This document shows, in pieces, positions 6,344 to 19,997 of a DNA stretch of 20,035 nt. Below the pieces are notes generated by a model. The model saw only the letters and a program-made list of their open reading frames with translations. It did no database searches and was not told the origin of the DNA. Location: IMG/VR virus record IMGVR_UViG_3300034167_000016, positions 1 to 20,035 of that record, one strand, 5' to 3'. This DNA comes from a virus. The first letter of the stretch is position 1; every line of letters starts with the position of its first letter. The translations under genes were made by a program, and so were the position numbers.

Positions 6344-6511
6344 ATGGTTAAGACAGATGTAGAAGCAAGGCTATCAACACATGAAGAGGTTTGTGCCCTT
6401 CGTTATGAACAGATTAATGCTCGTCTTAAAAGGTTAGAACAAATTCTTTTAGGTACAGCAGGCTTTGTTATTATATTTCTTTTAACCCAGTTTGTAAATT
6501 TAGCTAAGTAA
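6344..6511 (+). CDS. 55-aa coiled-coil plus one-transmembrane protein (XhlA-like, lysis cassette)
   Basis: A 55-residue frame runs from ATG 6344 to TAA 6509-6511. A GGAG at 6334-6337 lies six bases before the start, inside the end of the previous gene. Residues 1-34 are a charged, heptad-like helix (LSTHEEVCALRYEQINARLK, then RLEQ). Residues about 35-53 are a single hydrophobic span (ILLGTAGFVIIFLLTQFVNL) ending in Lys. This plan of soluble coiled coil then C-terminal membrane anchor is that of XhlA-type lysis proteins and some small holins or pinholins. It stands first in a run containing a metalloprotease, a holin and an endolysin, which supports a lysis role such as holin partner or membrane anchor. 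The assignment is by architecture only. A tail-tape or fibre anchor is possible but less likely. Confidence 0.75.
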   Translation: MVKTDVEARLSTHEEVCALRYEQINARLKRLEQILLGTAGFVIIFLLTQFVNLAK

Positions 6512-7794: not shown

Positions 7795-7936
7795 ACCAGG
7801 ACTGTATGCTAACATTAATGCTAAGCGTGCTAGAATTAAAGCAGGCTCAGGTGAAAAGATGCGTAAGGTAGGGGCGAAAGGTGCTCCTACTGCTAAAGCG
7901 TTTAAACAATCATTAAAGACTGCGAAAAAGAAATGA
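7784..7936 (+). CDS. 50-aa basic protein (MATKPGLYANI type), GTG start
   Basis: GTG 7784 begins a 50-residue protein starting MATKPGLYANINAKRARIKA. The same frame is open further upstream from a TTG at 7685, but that longer version would be out of frame inside the 44-aa gene. Its added residues are Leu/Lys shadow sequence, so the GTG is preferred. The MATKPGLYANI...R..I.AGSGEKMRK..GAPT pattern is one I recognise from many phage small proteins. It has 15 Lys/Arg and a single Glu. The ribosome-binding site is poor, so initiation probably depends on ribosomes finishing the 44-aa frame 11 bases later. Its TGA overlaps the next ATG (ATGA at 7933-7936). The function is unknown; it may bind nucleic acid. 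Confidence 0.78.
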   Translation: MATKPGLYANINAKRARIKAGSGEKMRKVGAKGAPTAKAFKQSLKTAKKK

Positions 7937-8229
7937 GTACTCCAGCATGGACAAGAAAAGAAGGCAAGAATCCTAAAGGTGGATTGAATGCCAAAGGAAG
8001 AGCTAGTTATACAGGAGGCACTCTAAAAGCCCCTGTTAAAACTGGTGATAACCCTCGTAGGGCTTCTTTCTTAGCTCGTATGGGTGGTATGCCTGGACCT
8101 GAAAAGAAACCTAATGGAGAGCCTACAAGATTACTACTATCTCTTAAAGCTTGGGGTGCCTCTTCTAAAGCAGATGCAAAAGCTAAAGCTAAAGCCATAT
8201 CTAACAGAAATAAAAACAAAAAGAAGTAG
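7933..8229 (+). CDS. 98-aa basic protein, DUF6321-like
   Basis: It starts at ATG 7933 inside the ATGA overlap and reads MSTPAWTRKEGKNPKGGLNA, then KGRASY...NPRRASFLARMGGMPGPE..NGEPTRLLLSLKAWGASSKADA and a Lys-rich end. The GLNAKGR, RRASFLARM, MPGPE and LKAWG blocks are those of a small phage family I recall as DUF6321. The protein is strongly basic, Gly/Ser/Lys-rich and lacks membrane segments. It is the last member of a coupled trio of tiny basic genes placed between the endolysin and the promoter for the tail genes. Its TAG stop (8227-8229) is followed immediately by the -35 box of that promoter. The biochemical role is unknown; structural or DNA-binding roles are guesses. Confidence 0.82.
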   Translation: MSTPAWTRKEGKNPKGGLNAKGRASYTGGTLKAPVKTGDNPRRASFLARMGGMPGPEKKPNGEPTRLLLSLKAWGASSKADAKAKAKAISNRNKNKKK

Positions 8230-8258
8230 TTGACAAATAGCCATACTTATGGTATAAT
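8230..8258 (+). promoter_or_regulatory. Consensus sigma70 promoter with extended -10
   Basis: TTGACA at 8230-8235 and TATAAT at 8253-8258 are separated by exactly 17 bp. The last three spacer bases are TGG, giving an extended -10 (TGnTATAAT). All 12 core positions match the consensus. Transcription should start near 8264-8266, about 20 bases before ATG 8285 of the tail tubular A-like gene. It provides a second entry into the late operon after the lysis genes. Confidence 0.88.
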
Positions 8259-8284: not shown

Positions 8285-8926
8285 ATGACTTATTTAGAAA
8301 TTGTCAATAGGGTTTTAAGAAGGCTTAGAGAGCAAGAGGTTGAATCTCTTACTGTTAATACTTATTCTACGCTTATTGCAGACTTAGTTAATGAAGTTAA
8401 ACGAGATGTTGAAAACTCATGGAATTGGAGTGCTCTTCGTACAACTTTAACTGCTACCACTGCCCCTGACTTATTTAATTATGTCTTAACTGGCACTGGA
8501 ACTAGATTTAGAGTATTAGATGTTATTAATGATACAACTAATACTTATATAGAAAGTAGACCAGGGTCTTGGTTTGATAGACAGTTTCTTATGGCTACTG
8601 TCCAAAAAGCTGCTCCAGCTTACTACAACTTTAATGGTGTAGATGCAAATGGTGACACACAAGTTGATGTATTCCCTATACCTGATGGTATTTATGATTT
8701 AAGATTTAATGTTATCCTTCCACAAGCTGATTTAGTACTTGCTACTGATGTTTTACAAATTCCTGCACCTTTAGTTATTGAAGGAACACTAGCTAGGGCT
8801 ATCTCTGAACGAGGTGAAGATGGTGGATTTATGGAACAAGAACAACGCTTCAGAAGTATGCTTGCTGACTATATTGCTATAGAAGCAGGGCATAGATCTG
8901 ACGAAACAGTTTGGTATCCTAGTTAA
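8285..8926 (+). CDS. Tail tubular protein A-like head-tail adaptor
   Basis: 213 residues from ATG 8285 ([20 protein letters not shown]). The frame can be extended to a TTG at 8258, but that codon overlaps the -10 box of the promoter and would lie upstream of its transcript, so ATG 8285 is chosen. The helical N-terminal half ([20 protein letters not shown]-like, with the WNW at about residues 45-47) and the beta-rich second half ([20 protein letters not shown]) match podovirus gp11/adaptor-type proteins as I know them. These form a ring between portal and nozzle. The next gene is the nozzle (gp12)-like protein, starting within the TAATG overlap, which strongly supports the call. A weak GGGAAA precedes the start. 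Confidence 0.82.
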
Positions 8927-10965
8927 TGGCTGGTCCATTAAAAACCACTAGTATAACAGCTCCTGGATTCATGGGTTTAAATACCCAAGATTCAGGGGTT
9001 ACTCTTGAGAGTGGTTATGCTACTGTTGCTAATAATTGTATTATTGACAAATATGGTCGTTTAGGTGCTAGAAAAGGTTGGGATCTTTTAACAGATCCTA
9101 TTAATGCTGTATTTACAGCTTCTATTACTACTACTACAATGACTGTGCATTCAGTTACCTCAGGTACATTATCTATTGGTACTATATTGTCAGGTACTGG
9201 TATTACTGCAGGAACTACAATTACAGCTTTAGGTACTGGTACTGGTGGAACTGGTACATATACTGTTAGTGCATCACAAACAAGAAATGGTATCTCAGGT
9301 ACTTACGCTAGAACATTAGCAGTGGTAACAGTAACAGCAACTGCACATGGTCTATCAGTAGGTGATACAGTTTATTTAGACTTTACTTCAGGTACTGCTG
9401 CAGATGGTGCCTTTGCAATTACAGCCGTTACGGCAAATACATTTACAATTACTCATGGAACTAGTGGAACTACTAGTGGTAGTGTAACAATATATAGACC
9501 AACAACTGCTTCTAATGATCTTACTACAGGTAGTTATTTAGAGTCTATATTTGAATTTAAAACAATTGGTGGATCTATTAGTTATTTATCATCAGGTGAT
9601 GGTAAATTATATGCTAGTAGTACAACAACTAGCCTTACTAGAAAATATGTATTTGGTGCAGATTCAGGTGGTCCTGTAGCATTAAGTACTCAACCTAACT
9701 TTACAGGAAATAGATGGCAGTGGGCTGCCCTTCCTGAAGGTAGTGGTGCAGCTGCAGAATCTTATGCTTTTGCTGTTCAGTCAGGTAATCCTTTCCTTGT
9801 ATATAGAGAAGGTGGTCATAGTGGTCCTTTTGTATTTCAAAGAGTAGGTACAGATTATGGAACTGCTCCAACTGGAGTAACTACATTTGACCCTGATACA
9901 GTATTAGCCTCTTTTGGTAGAATATGGGTTGGTGGACTAACAGATAATAAAACAACTGTATTTTATAGTAAATTACTTGATGGTGCTCATTTTACAGGAG
10001 CAGGAAGTGGTTTATTAGATATTGGTGGTGTTGTTGGACAGAATGATGAAATTGTATCTATTGCTCAACATAATAAATATTTAGTTATATTCTGTAAGAA
10101 TAACATTGTAGTTTATCAAGGTGCTAATGATCCTACAACAATGACATTAGCTGACACTATTAAAGGTGTTGGATGTATTGCTAGAGATTCTGTACAGAAT
10201 ACAGGTAATGATTTAATATTCCTATCTAAGAGTGGTGTTAGAAGTTTTAATAGAACTGTACAAGAAAACTCTATGCCACTGCGGGAACTCTCTCTTAATA
10301 TTAGAGATGACTTAGTTAGTTTTCTTACTGTAGAAACTTTAACTAATGTAAAGAGTGCTTATTTTGAAAGAGATGCTTTTTACTTAATTACTTTCCCAGG
10401 TTCTAAGACAATGGTTTATTTTGATCTTAGAAACATATTACAGAATGGGGCAGCAAGAACTACTATTTGGAATAATAATGCTGGTATAACTTATAAAGCG
10501 TTTTGTAGTACAGAAGATAGAAAACTTATTCTAGGTGTACCAAATGGTATGGCAGAATATACAGGATATTTAGATGATACTGCTAGTTATACATTTAGTT
10601 ATTATACATCTAACTCAGACTTAGGTGCACCAACACAAGAGAAAATGCTTAAAAAAGCTAACTTAGTTGTTATTGGTAGTGGAGATCAAGACTTTGTATT
10701 TAAGTATGGGTATGACTATACATTAAATCCTCAGTCAGTCACTATTGTACAAAACTTAGGTACTAAAACATTTTCCAAATTTAATACAACAGCTAAATAT
10801 AATATTAGTAAATATGCCTCAGCAGGTATTGGTGTTAATTCAATTTCTATGCCATTATCAGGATCAGGCAAAGTAATTCAATTTGGAGTTGAAGCTACAG
10901 TAAATGATAATCCAGTATCAATACAAAAAATAGATGTCTATCTTAAAACAGGGAAAATTTTATAA
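8926..10965 (+). CDS. Tail tubular protein B-like nozzle protein with inserted beta modules
   Basis: 679 residues. The N-terminus ([20 protein letters not shown], then [19 protein letters not shown]) and the middle ([53 protein letters not shown]) form the beta-propeller-like body of gp12/nozzle proteins of short-tailed phages. Residues about 65-195 are an insertion of Thr/Gly-rich modules: [20 protein letters not shown] followed by [11 protein letters not shown], and then an [13 protein letters not shown] unit. The protein is in the length range of T7 gp12 but carries this insert. It would close the distal tail tube and contact fibres. It overlaps the adaptor gene and the next fibre gene by one base each (TAATG), indicating one transcript and coupled translation. 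Confidence 0.83.
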
Positions 10966-17139: not shown

Positions 17140-17143
17140 GAAA

Positions 17144-17161
17144 AAGCCCTTATGAGGGCTT
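17144..17161. terminator. Bidirectional intrinsic terminator between convergent operons
   Basis: AAGCCCT (17144-17150) pairs with AGGGCTT (17155-17161) around a TATG loop. On the minus strand the hairpin is followed by a clean T run (17145-17141, then C), a strong terminator for the reductase operon. On the plus strand it is followed by CTCTTT, a weaker tract, 4 bp after the stop of the last structural gene. It separates the two convergent transcripts. Confidence 0.85.
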
Positions 17162-17284
17162 CTCTTTAGATAGTACTAATCGTACTATTAGTAAGTCAAT
17201 AACTGTGTAGGTAAAGGCATCATCACTAAGGAACTCAATCCCTAGTGAAGCTCCACTAATTAAGCTTAGTTCATATTCTATCAT
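17150..17284 (-). CDS. 44-aa protein translationally coupled to the ribonucleotide reductase
   Basis: ATG at 17284-17282 overlaps the reductase stop TGA (17283-17281) as ATGA. The frame runs 44 codons to TAA at 17152-17150, filling almost the whole gap before the plus-strand genes. It reads MIEYELSLISGASLGIEFLS, then an Asp pair, FTYTVIDLLIVRLVL and a charged SKEKPS end. The alternating hydrophobic pattern predicts a small two- to three-strand beta unit rather than a membrane helix. I recall small proteins of this shape (a start like LSL.SG.S.GIEF and an end like ..DL.I.R..) in other aquatic phages, which supports a real gene. Its function is unknown. The TAA lies within the hairpin of the terminator, which links translation of this gene with the end of transcription. 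Confidence 0.75.
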   Translation of the reverse strand: MIEYELSLISGASLGIEFLSDDAFTYTVIDLLIVRLVLSKEKPS

Positions 17285-19164
17285 ATTTCACATGCTCCTG
17301 CTGTACAAGCTAAGGTTTGTTGACCAGTAGTATTATCTTCCTGTTCTAGAAAATCAGCCCAATCTATACGACTAGGAGTCTTTGCTAGTTGTTCTTTATA
17401 CTCTTCTTCACTACAATCTTCATAAGGTGCTTGTTGATATGTGTGATTAGAGTATGGTAAGAAAGATACACCACTAATTTCGTCAAAGTGCTTCCATACC
17501 CATGATCCTACTTCAGGCCATTCATCATCTTTTACTGAAATAGTAACGCTAGGTTTATGTTCACACCAGTGTCTTTGGTATATTAACCAAATTTCTAACT
17601 GTTCAATAGCTGTCTTATCATTTCTAAGAATAGCATTTTTAGGTGCTTTCATAGGGAAACTAAAGACTGCTGTTGAATCAGGTCTAAATACTTCATCCTC
17701 TACAGATACTCCCATAGATTTTAAGTAGTCATAGATAGGATCTTTTTTATCCATGCGTATACGTCTAATGTAAAAATTATTGTGACGTGCGTGGATGCCA
17801 CTAGCGGAATCAACCAACTGTGACACAGTACCTGAAGGTTTAACGCAAGTAATAGAAGCAGAAGGTTGGATATCAAATTGCTTTGCATATTCCTCATTTG
17901 TCGTCCTAGAGACATCTCTTAACCTTTCTAACAGTTTAGGATCAGGATTGTTAGTAATCTTAGCATCCATGATACCTGTTAAACTAACTCCTAATAGTCT
18001 CTCTTCAGACGTATTCTTAAGCCACTCAGAAGATAGAAACTGAAAGTTAGTTAAGGTTGATTGGATAGTTCCAAGTATTGTTGCGAGCCTGACCTTCTTA
18101 GTAAGGGTAGATTCGGTATCATTTTCCCGTACAACCACTTCCGTAAGATTACAGAATTGTTTATCACGAAGGATAATCTCTGAGCATGGATTGGTTCCGT
18201 AACTGAGAGTAGGATCTCGTCTTCCCCACTTATTTGCTTGATTCTGAGCAGCAACACGATTAAAGATTCCTCGTTCACCTGATTTGGATTTAACCAAACT
18301 GAGCCACTCTTCCATGAAAGTTTCACTATCTGGTTTCTCCGTGTATGCCACTGAGTTATTTGCGAGTCCTCTATGTGAATTATCATTATACCATGCTCCT
18401 GTTTTAGCATCTCTCATACGTTTATCTGTAAGATTAGAAAGAGAAATAAGAGCAGATCTTCTAACACCACCAACTACTACAATCTCTCCAATCATACACA
18501 TAATATCATGTACTTCAATAGAGTTTAGTTTACGTCCTACTGCACCTTTAAATGTGTGTACTACAAACTCAAACAGTTTCTTTAAAGGTTCAGGACCACT
18601 AGCACGACCACCAAACACTTTAAGTCTAGCCCCAGCTGGTCTTACTCTACTGTAATCAAATGTAGGTATATCACCTTCCCAAAGGGATGATACTAGTTTC
18701 TTAAAGGCCTTAGCCCATCCTAGTTTACTATCTTCAACTACAATTACATCATCACATTGTTTTAATTCAGAAGGAATCTCTGGTAGTTTAGCAATCTCTT
18801 GACGTTCACAAGAGAAGCCAACCCCTGTACCGTTCATGAGTATATATAAAGCTTCACTAAAAGCACGTTTATTATTAACAGCAAGATAAGAACAATTATA
18901 AGCAGCGATGTTATCTCTTTCACAGGCCTCTCCAGCACTCATTAAAAGCCTCATAGAAGGCATTACTTCTAACTTTAAAACAGAATTGTGTAGTTCATCC
19001 CAAGTATTTGTATCTAATGTTACTTTAGTTTTAAGGTAATTAGTAAGACGTGTTACTGTTTCTTCCCATGTTTCTCTGCGATTTTTTTCAGGAATGTAAC
19101 GAGCATACCTGCTCATCGCAATTACTTCCTGGTAAACACTTGGTAAACTACTCATATGTATCAT
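17281..19164 (-). CDS. nrdJ: Adenosylcobalamin-dependent (class II) ribonucleoside-triphosphate reductase
   Basis: This enzyme reduces ribonucleotides to deoxyribonucleotides for phage DNA synthesis using a B12-generated thiyl radical. Landmarks match the monomeric Lactobacillus-type enzyme. Cys91 in YNCSYLAV is one of the redox pair. Asn325, Cys327 (radical) and Glu329 lie in NPCSEI, and Cys338, exactly 11 residues later, completes the pair. KPSGTVS is at 442-448. The C-terminal CTAGACEI has Cys620 and Cys625, the C-x4-C redox tail. No N-terminal ATP cone is seen. It is 627 residues, shorter than the ~740 of the bacterial enzyme, with the region between Cys91 and Cys327 reduced. The listed start, ATG 19164, overlaps the upstream gene by 17 bases; ATG 19155 (MSSLPSVYQ) and the later ATG before SRYARY are alternatives, and AGAGG is poorly spaced for each. 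A 44-aa gene is coupled at the stop. Confidence 0.92.
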   Translation of the reverse strand: MIHMSSLPSVYQEVIAMSRYARYIPEKNRRETWEETVTRLTNYLKTKVTLDTNTWDELHNSVLKLEVMPSMRLLMSAGEACERDNIAAYNCSYLAVNNKRAFSEALYILMNGTGVGFSCERQEIAKLPEIPSELKQCDDVIVVEDSKLGWAKAFKKLVSSLWEGDIPTFDYSRVRPAGARLKVFGGRASGPEPLKKLFEFVVHTFKGAVGRKLNSIEVHDIMCMIGEIVVVGGVRRSALISLSNLTDKRMRDAKTGAWYNDNSHRGLANNSVAYTEKPDSETFMEEWLSLVKSKSGERGIFNRVAAQNQANKWGRRDPTLSYGTNPCSEIILRDKQFCNLTEVVVRENDTESTLTKKVRLATILGTIQSTLTNFQFLSSEWLKNTSEERLLGVSLTGIMDAKITNNPDPKLLERLRDVSRTTNEEYAKQFDIQPSASITCVKPSGTVSQLVDSASGIHARHNNFYIRRIRMDKKDPIYDYLKSMGVSVEDEVFRPDSTAVFSFPMKAPKNAILRNDKTAIEQLEIWLIYQRHWCEHKPSVTISVKDDEWPEVGSWVWKHFDEISGVSFLPYSNHTYQQAPYEDCSEEEYKEQLAKTPSRIDWADFLEQEDNTTGQQTLACTAGACEI

Positions 19165-19333
19165 AATCCTCTAGTTCGTTGTTTATTTCTTTTGACAACC
19201 TGTCAAAGTTGTCTTCTATTTTGTCTTGAAAAGAATCAACTATCTCTTCTGATGTAAGATTAAGTAGTTCCATTAACGTTATTTCGTCTAACTTCTTTAA
19301 ATCTTCACACAGTTCGTAGAATGTTCTATTCAT
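19148..19333 (-). CDS. Small acidic hypothetical protein (61 aa)
   Basis: ATG 19333 begins two bases after the stop of the 60-aa gene upstream. The protein is acidic and helical: YELCEDLKKLDEITLMELLN, LTSEEIVDSFQDKIEDNFDR, LSKEINNELEDYDTYE. The pattern of an LxELLxLTSEEIVDxFQDxIExN helix is a form I recall from small early proteins of aquatic and T7-like phages, without a known function. It could act by protein-protein contact, for example by binding a host or replication factor. The last 17 bases overlap the reductase start at ATG 19164, and the frame ends in GATTATGATACATATGAGTAG, which contains two candidate reductase starts. No membrane segment or metal motif. Confidence 0.72.
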   Translation of the reverse strand: MNRTFYELCEDLKKLDEITLMELLNLTSEEIVDSFQDKIEDNFDRLSKEINNELEDYDTYE

Positions 19334-19335
19334 GC

Positions 19336-19518
19336 TTAGCTTTCTGATGACCGACCATTGTTATTATGTTTTGGCATGGACAATTGGTCCATATCCTCCA
19401 CTGTTAGTTTCTGTTCTCTTATTTTCTTTCCGAAGATTCGATCCCAATTCTCTTCTCCATCCTTGGATAAAGGCTTTGATACGAGACTGTCTCCTGTTAC
19501 ATCGTTCTTTGTTGCCAC
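19336..19518 (-). CDS. Small hypothetical protein (60 aa), GTG start inside the DUF3310 frame
   Basis: GTG 19518 has a perfect AAGGAG (19531-19526) seven bases upstream. The protein reads MATKNDVTGDSLVSKPLSKD, then GEENWDRIFGKK and a Lys/Glu-rich end. The VTGDSLVSKP and NWDRIFGKK blocks are a recurring small-phage-protein pattern, so this frame looks genuine. It overlaps the 3' part of the DUF3310 gene by 155 bases in another frame. Its stop lies two bases before the next ATG. The function is unknown; it is probably soluble and helical at the end. It is a member of the minus-strand nucleotide/early operon. Confidence 0.8.
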   Translation of the reverse strand: MATKNDVTGDSLVSKPLSKDGEENWDRIFGKKIREQKLTVEDMDQLSMPKHNNNGRSSES

Positions 19519-19717
19519 TTTCTAACTCCTTAAGTAGTTCAATATAATGAATAACCTTATCCAAGTCTTTCATTCCACCCTTGTCCCTCCATCTACAGAT
19601 GTATTTAATTACATTACCTTCAATGAAAGGGATATTGTTTTTATGAATAAATTCAGTGGGTTGTATTACAAACTTCTTGTAATGATTACCATCCACCTGT
19701 TTATTTAATGCATTCAT
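19364..19717 (-). CDS. DUF3310 protein (T7 gp1.7-like nucleotide kinase family)
   Basis: Residues about 1-66 are a complete DUF3310 domain: QVDGNHYKKFVIQPTEFIHK, NNIPFIEGNVIKYICRWRDK, GGMKDLDKVIHYIELLKELE. The GNHY, I.GNVIKYICRW and GG..DL.K..HYI blocks are diagnostic. T7 gp1.7, which contains this domain, is a nucleotide kinase, so a dNMP metabolism role beside the reductase is a natural inference. The ~50 residues after the domain are Arg/Lys/Asn-rich and read as the off-frame shadow of the 60-aa gene. The CGA at 19504-19502 is one transition from TGA, so a short ancestral end is possible. Transcription is from the consensus promoter just upstream, and the expected leader is only about 11 bases. 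Confidence 0.85.
   Translation of the reverse strand: MNALNKQVDGNHYKKFVIQPTEFIHKNNIPFIEGNVIKYICRWRDKGGMKDLDKVIHYIELLKELESGNKERCNRRQSRIKAFIQGWRRELGSNLRKENKRTETNSGGYGPIVHAKT
19526..19531 (-). promoter_or_regulatory. Strong ribosome-binding site for the GTG-start 60-aa gene
   Basis: AAGGAG on the minus strand, 7 bases before GTG 19518 and inside the DUF3310 coding frame. It decides the start of the 60-aa gene, since no ATG is available at that point. Confidence 0.85.
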
Positions 19718-19734: not shown

Positions 19735-19763
19735 ATTATATCAAGTATCGTTGAATCTGTCAA
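19735..19763 (-). promoter_or_regulatory. Consensus sigma70 promoter with extended -10, minus strand
   Basis: Minus-strand TTGACA (19763-19758) and TATAAT (19740-19735) with a 17-bp spacer ending TGA, giving an extended -10. All 12 core positions are consensus. TTGACA begins immediately after the TAG stop of the 77-aa gene. It should drive the DUF3310 gene, the two small genes, the reductase and the 44-aa gene, with a start near 19728. Confidence 0.88.
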
Positions 19764-19997
19764 CTATAATCCTGGGTTTGCTTCAACTAATCTCTTAGCA
19801 TCATACTTTTTAATACCTTCATAATGTTTTGATTCATTTTCATTTTTATATAAAGGAGTTATAGTTACATTATGTTTCTGTGTTTTTAAATCTTTAAACC
19901 AAGATAGTTCTGTAGGTTCAAAGAAAGCAATCATCTTCCAAACTAATTGCCCTTTTGAATTTAGTTCTTCTACTAACCAAGCATCAGGTTTTATCAT
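19764..19997 (-). CDS. 77-aa hypothetical protein
   Basis: It begins MIKPDAWLVEELNSKGQLVW and has a central KMIAFFEPTELSWFKDLKTQ, a VTITPLYK strand and a Lys-rich end. The 'PDAWLVE...ITPLYK' layout is shared by many short uncharacterised phage proteins in my recollection. The start ATG lies in an ATGA overlap with the partial gene to the right, so translation is probably coupled, and no good ribosome-binding site is visible. Its TAG stop abuts the -35 box of the promoter for the next genes. No enzyme, membrane or metal motif is seen; the function is unknown. Confidence 0.7.
   Translation of the reverse strand: MIKPDAWLVEELNSKGQLVWKMIAFFEPTELSWFKDLKTQKHNVTITPLYKNENESKHYEGIKKYDAKRLVEANPGL

Follow-up and report, generated by a model that had tools for sequence, protein, structure and literature searches.

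Two sites in a stretch of 20,035 nucleotides (hereafter the window), part of the genome of an uncultured tailed water phage, look like perfect bacterial promoters. Each begins directly after a TAG stop codon and each has the word ATACTT in its spacer. The original prediction was that the two are copies of one regulatory cassette fitted into minimal intergenic space. The locus thus raises two questions: whether these sites are promoters at all and, if so, whether they have anything in common beyond the elements that RNA polymerase reads.

Two full-consensus promoters in the window

The pattern TTGACA-N(15-19)-TATAAT has exactly two exact matches in the window, at 8230-8258 on the plus strand and at 19735-19763 on the minus strand. 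Dinucleotide shuffles of the same sequence gave a mean of 0.05 exact matches, and none of them reached two. The minus-strand site (19763-19735) reads TTGACA GATTCAACGATACTTGA TATAAT, with TGA ahead of the -10 element, and the plus-strand site reads TTGACA AATAGCCATACTTATGG TATAAT, with a spacer ending in TGG. At both, the hexamers agree with the consensus at 12 of 12 positions and the spacer is 17 bp long, so that the -35 TTGACA, the -10 TATAAT and the TGn next to the -10 expected of sigma70 extended -10 promoters are all present. Spacers of sigma70 promoters range from 16 to 18 bp, 17 being best. The two sites fall within the non-coding fraction of the window, which amounts to ~3%. The description of them as perfect promoters of this design was accordingly confirmed, and so was the TAG before each TTGACA, which is the in-frame stop of the preceding open reading frame (Table 1).

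The next-best site, 6498-6470 on the minus strand (11/12, without TG), was rejected as a promoter: it lies antisense within an ORF of 55 codons with conserved counterparts in relatives. This ORF (6344-6511, plus strand, ATG start) occupies an apparent intergenic gap, is below the 60-aa cut-off and has a hydrophobic stretch close to its C-terminus. No Rfam family was matched in the window.

Table 1. Features around the two promoters (window coordinates)
Feature	Position	Strand	Basis or remark
DUF6321 gene, 5' of plus-strand promoter; TAG stop 8227-8229 abuts -35	7933..8229	+	family match
Promoter, adaptor/structural gene run	-35 8230-8235; spacer 17 bp, ends TGG; -10 8253-8258	+	consensus and conservation
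Predicted start, plus-strand promoter	~8265; 20-nt leader, ATG at 8285	+	start inferred
SU10-type adaptor protein gene, first 3' of plus-strand promoter	8285..8926	+	PF24175, E 2.9e-12
Terminator-like hairpin, gap where two gene runs converge	17141..17164	-	consensus match only
Class II (B12-dependent) ribonucleotide reductase (RNR)	17281..19164	-	family match
61-aa ORF, DUF3310-to-reductase interval	19148..19333	-	ORF call
DUF3310 gene (PF11753), first 3' of minus-strand promoter	19364..19717	-	E 5.4e-09; PHROG 236 'nucleotide kinase'
Predicted start, minus-strand promoter	~19728; 11-nt leader, DUF3310 ATG at 19717	-	start inferred
Promoter, DUF3310/RNR gene run	-35 19763-19758; spacer 19757-19741, TGA 19743-19741; -10 19740-19735	-	consensus and orthologous-position conservation
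77-aa ORF, 5' of minus-strand promoter; TAG stop 19766-19764 abuts -35	19764..19997	-	ORF call

Profile searches gave no protein-family match for the 77-aa ORF or for the 61-aa ORF. A same-strand gene precedes each promoter, so that both are internal to gene runs. The idea that one promoter faces each operon was thus right about direction, but neither site is at the head of its run. Among named phages, MEP401 and MEP402, two Methylophilales phages whose records place them in Zobellviridae, come closest at the RNR gene. For the window's own strain, the longest record found was a public contig of 23.9 kb (G001); it matches all 20,035 bases at 99.97% identity and continues for another 3.9 kb.

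Conservation at the same genes in relatives

Upstream of the adaptor gene, the exact pattern TTGACW-N16-18-TGN-TATAAT was sought within 100 nt of the gene in the 79 relatives having the gene start, and it was present in 72. Among 25 non-redundant relatives with the site, TTGAC, TG and TATAAT are invariant and the spacer is always 17 bp, while most positions within the spacer vary. TAG stands directly 5' of the -35 element in 13 of these 25 and serves as stop of the upstream frame in only 6; at many of the other sites the upstream gene stops with a TAA located 8 nt earlier. TAG has therefore outlasted its role as a stop codon at this site and is not a required part of the promoter.

Ahead of the DUF3310/RNR genes, exact -35 (TTGACW) and -10 elements occur in 21 of 30 non-redundant relatives (a tally that includes L038, whose site falls outside the main scanned stretch) and the exact site is absent in nine. 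Some of the 21 are without TG, and some have a gene other than DUF3310 next to the promoter. As a control, the opposite strand of these stretches gave best sites of at most 10/12. The TGA stop of the upstream gene commonly lies inside the -35 box (T-TGA-CA), and a TAG that directly precedes TTGACA and serves as the stop of the upstream gene is found only in the closest relatives of the window (L006, L007, L009 and L011). The claim that the promoters are beyond chance is borne out by this same-gene conservation together with the shuffling result.

In several relatives (L069:1164, L077:397, L085:8222, also L073 and L081) the ATG of the DUF3310 gene lies 0-1 nt 3' of TATAAT. Since this is before any plausible start, the mRNA made from such a promoter could not contain that ATG.

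Promoters of the same class across whole relatives

Exact matches to TTGACA-N16-18-TATAAT were found in 17 of 21 records scanned, and a reversed control pattern gave zero exact matches across the same 21. In 11 relatives (the window's own strain left out; many relatives' records are incomplete) we located ~46 intergenic or gene-end sites, 2-6 per genome, on the basis of crude gene calls except in annotated records. Nearly all of the relatives' promoters of this class lie between genes; in the annotated genomes of MEP401 and MEP402 there are four sites each, all of them either intergenic or running 11 nt into the end of a gene.

Three promoters in relatives, G011:4456-4484 (+) (in L166), G014:27054-27082 (+) and G012:15642-15670 (+), contain in their spacers a dyad, CAGAATG-AAAA-CATTCTG, or variants of the form CAGAA..TTCTG. 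Each has a divergent promoter ~100 bp away, and the arrangement is operator-like.

One recurrent match, inside the DNA polymerase gene (TTGACTTT...TATGGGATAAT...AGTATAG; G001:1245-1273 (+), L003:8052-8080 (+) and homologues), was set aside. The conserved protein stretch LDFDPKVWDN precedes it in many relatives, for which reason coding constraint is the simpler and likely cause; most have G at -12, and in other relatives the match is absent.

G011 was also considered as a proxy for the complete genome of the window and rejected, only its structural part being a match: the structural genes are 87-90% identical, most of the RNR side is unalignable and the polymerase gene differs. Module exchange between lineages with a common promoter design is the probable cause of this mismatch.

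Probable host sigma70 promoters in a compact genome

The reading that best accounts for these observations is that both sites are strong full-consensus promoters (TTGACA-N14-TGN-TATAAT), internal to two gene runs and recognised by the housekeeping sigma70 RNA polymerase of the host. We hold this to be very probable on sequence grounds; use of the host polymerase, the start sites and the timing are predicted. The minus-strand promoter would provide extra or separately timed transcription of the DUF3310/class-II RNR genes (nucleotide supply), and the plus-strand promoter would do the same for the head-tail adaptor and the structural genes that follow it. Selection would act to preserve the sigma contacts along with the 17-bp geometry, the spacer being left free to drift. 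The -35 box would be forced up to, or into, the preceding gene's stop codon, since ~97% of the genome is coding. The general rule is one of genome compaction: the -35 element abuts or overlaps whichever upstream stop is present, often as T-TGA-CA.

The search for phage transcription factors covered two families. For T7-type single-subunit RNA polymerase (PF00940) the result was negative in the window and in eight relatives or records, some of them incomplete, with T7 itself detected as positive control; sigma70 region 2 was likewise not detected, either in the window or in the whole relatives searched. The host housekeeping holoenzyme is consequently the expected reader. MEP401, MEP402 and some other relatives have TTGACT, one base off TTGACA. 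Promoters of the betaproteobacterium Burkholderia cenocepacia have been reported to be without a conserved -35 TTG (PMC8407463), so that a preference for this consensus on the part of the phage's host is not a given.

Bases beyond the consensus

We also compared positions outside the sigma70 elements, using 35 non-redundant intergenic sites of the phage family and 139 sites with the same core pattern, mostly from unrelated viral contigs, among the matches listed. T at -4 is present at 29 of the 35 family sites (83%) versus 38 of the 139 (27%) among the matches listed from unrelated phage promoters, and TATA at -1 to +3 at 16/35 (46%) versus 14/139 (10%), again among the matches listed. A is found at +1 in 83% of the family sites. 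T at -4 is moreover constant at different genes of single genomes (MEP401, 4/4; G017, 5/5; G018, 4/4; G015, 4/4). Such a pattern would be expected if T at -4 and TAT at -1 to +2 were read by a phage-coded factor, or caused a sigma-dependent pause at the start, thereby defining a co-regulated set. However, some of the family sites are orthologous to one another, and the pattern was spotted only in retrospect; for these reasons the -4/start-region element is a lead only. Furthermore, the unrelated sites preceded by TAG also have most often A at +1 with T at -1 and +2, if more weakly, among the matches listed, and the minus-strand site of the window has T at -4 but is without TAT at the start. 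All told, we regard co-regulation through these bases as unlikely.

At four non-redundant sites in relatives an ATG is located exactly 6 nt 3' of TATAAT, that is at the predicted +1, and the sequences suggest that these phage mRNAs are likely to be leaderless. The A of an ATG coincides with the predicted start, at different genes, in L003 (MEP401) at 10759-10794 (+) and 29814-29779 (-), and in L171 and L175. A wider formulation would be a single genome-wide promoter class: next to perfect sigma70 elements there would be a family element spanning -4 to +3, which would either link initiation to a phage factor or a programmed start-site pause, or set the start exactly on ATG and so yield leaderless mRNAs; this too we consider unlikely.

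The cassette and chance

With host sigma70 promoters as the preferred reading, a copied module consisting of a stop TAG and a promoter, placed at chosen positions in the genome, is very improbable. It would account for the TAG at both sites of the window (2/2), at two sites in G011 and at two in G014, and for the recurrence of the promoter design 2-6 times per genome. Against it, TAG precedes only ~6 of the ~46 promoters in the 11 whole relatives and acts as the stop at just 6 of the 25 adaptor sites, and TAG is the stop of 4 of the 22 genes in the window. The predicted outcome of a wider scan, at least three further intergenic matches and few genic ones, was obtained in relatives as far as the promoter design is concerned; the TAG gave no such result. 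Nor are the two sites alike elsewhere: compared by eye, they have no common sequence outside the sigma70 elements, their spacers and flanks being unrelated. ATACTT is indeed present in both spacers, but it is absent from the orthologous ones; the chance of sharing it is ~5% (p ~0.055 for any 6-mer common to two such spacers). The cassette of TAG, TTGACA and ATACTT is thus mostly refuted. The likeness that drew attention to the two sites is mostly sigma70 consensus plus coincidence, the common TAG stop and ATACTT being local accidents in so tightly packed a genome.

The idea that an A+T-rich genome simply yields such matches by chance can practically be dismissed in spite of the low G+C content of the window (35.5%) and the lack of any excess of weaker promoter-like sites (60 versus 74 in shuffled sequence), given that exact sites are 40-fold above expectation and are retained ahead of the same genes despite drift in the spacer.

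Relation to known promoters and significance

With every core element at consensus, the two sites resemble sigma70 promoters having a full -35, a 17-bp spacer and an extended -10 (TGn, TRTGn). T is present at -17 in 91% of the non-redundant family sites, a similarity to the TRTG form reported from Gram-positive promoters (PMC2613000). Unlike typical sigma70 extended -10 promoters, those of the phage family have all elements perfect together and kept across relatives, a -35 element fused to stop codons, and the extra T at -4 and TAT around +1. The promoters of MEP401 and MEP402 have the 17-bp spacing, TG and TATAAT in common with those of the window, and in both phages one promoter precedes a short gene 5' of RNR (MEP401 gp21, MEP402 gp22) whose start resembles DUF3310 genes; they differ in that TTGACTTT is used and that at two of the four sites per genome an ATG lies 6 nt past the -10 element. 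We found no published transcription study of MEP401, OM43 phages or Zobellviridae promoters.

In lambda PR' the pause element occupies the register +1 to +6, which differs from the -1 to +3 of the family. Promoters of the lambda PR' and Q type have a sigma-dependent, start-proximal pause (PMC6606751), and the second TATA-like word of the family, just past the -10 element, is reminiscent of these; judged from the bases, the likeness is a resemblance only.

Taken as sequences, the two sites are almost certainly real, conserved and strong sigma70-type promoters and, beyond the leads described above, ordinary ones. The analysis provides a confident promoter map, obtained from sequence only, for a large uncultured phage group whose nearest cultured relatives infect methylotrophs. 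It tells real conservation (sigma contacts and spacing) apart from eye-catching coincidence (TAG and ATACTT), and it illustrates how, where spare DNA is nearly absent, promoters come to lie within stop codons and, in relatives, up against start codons.
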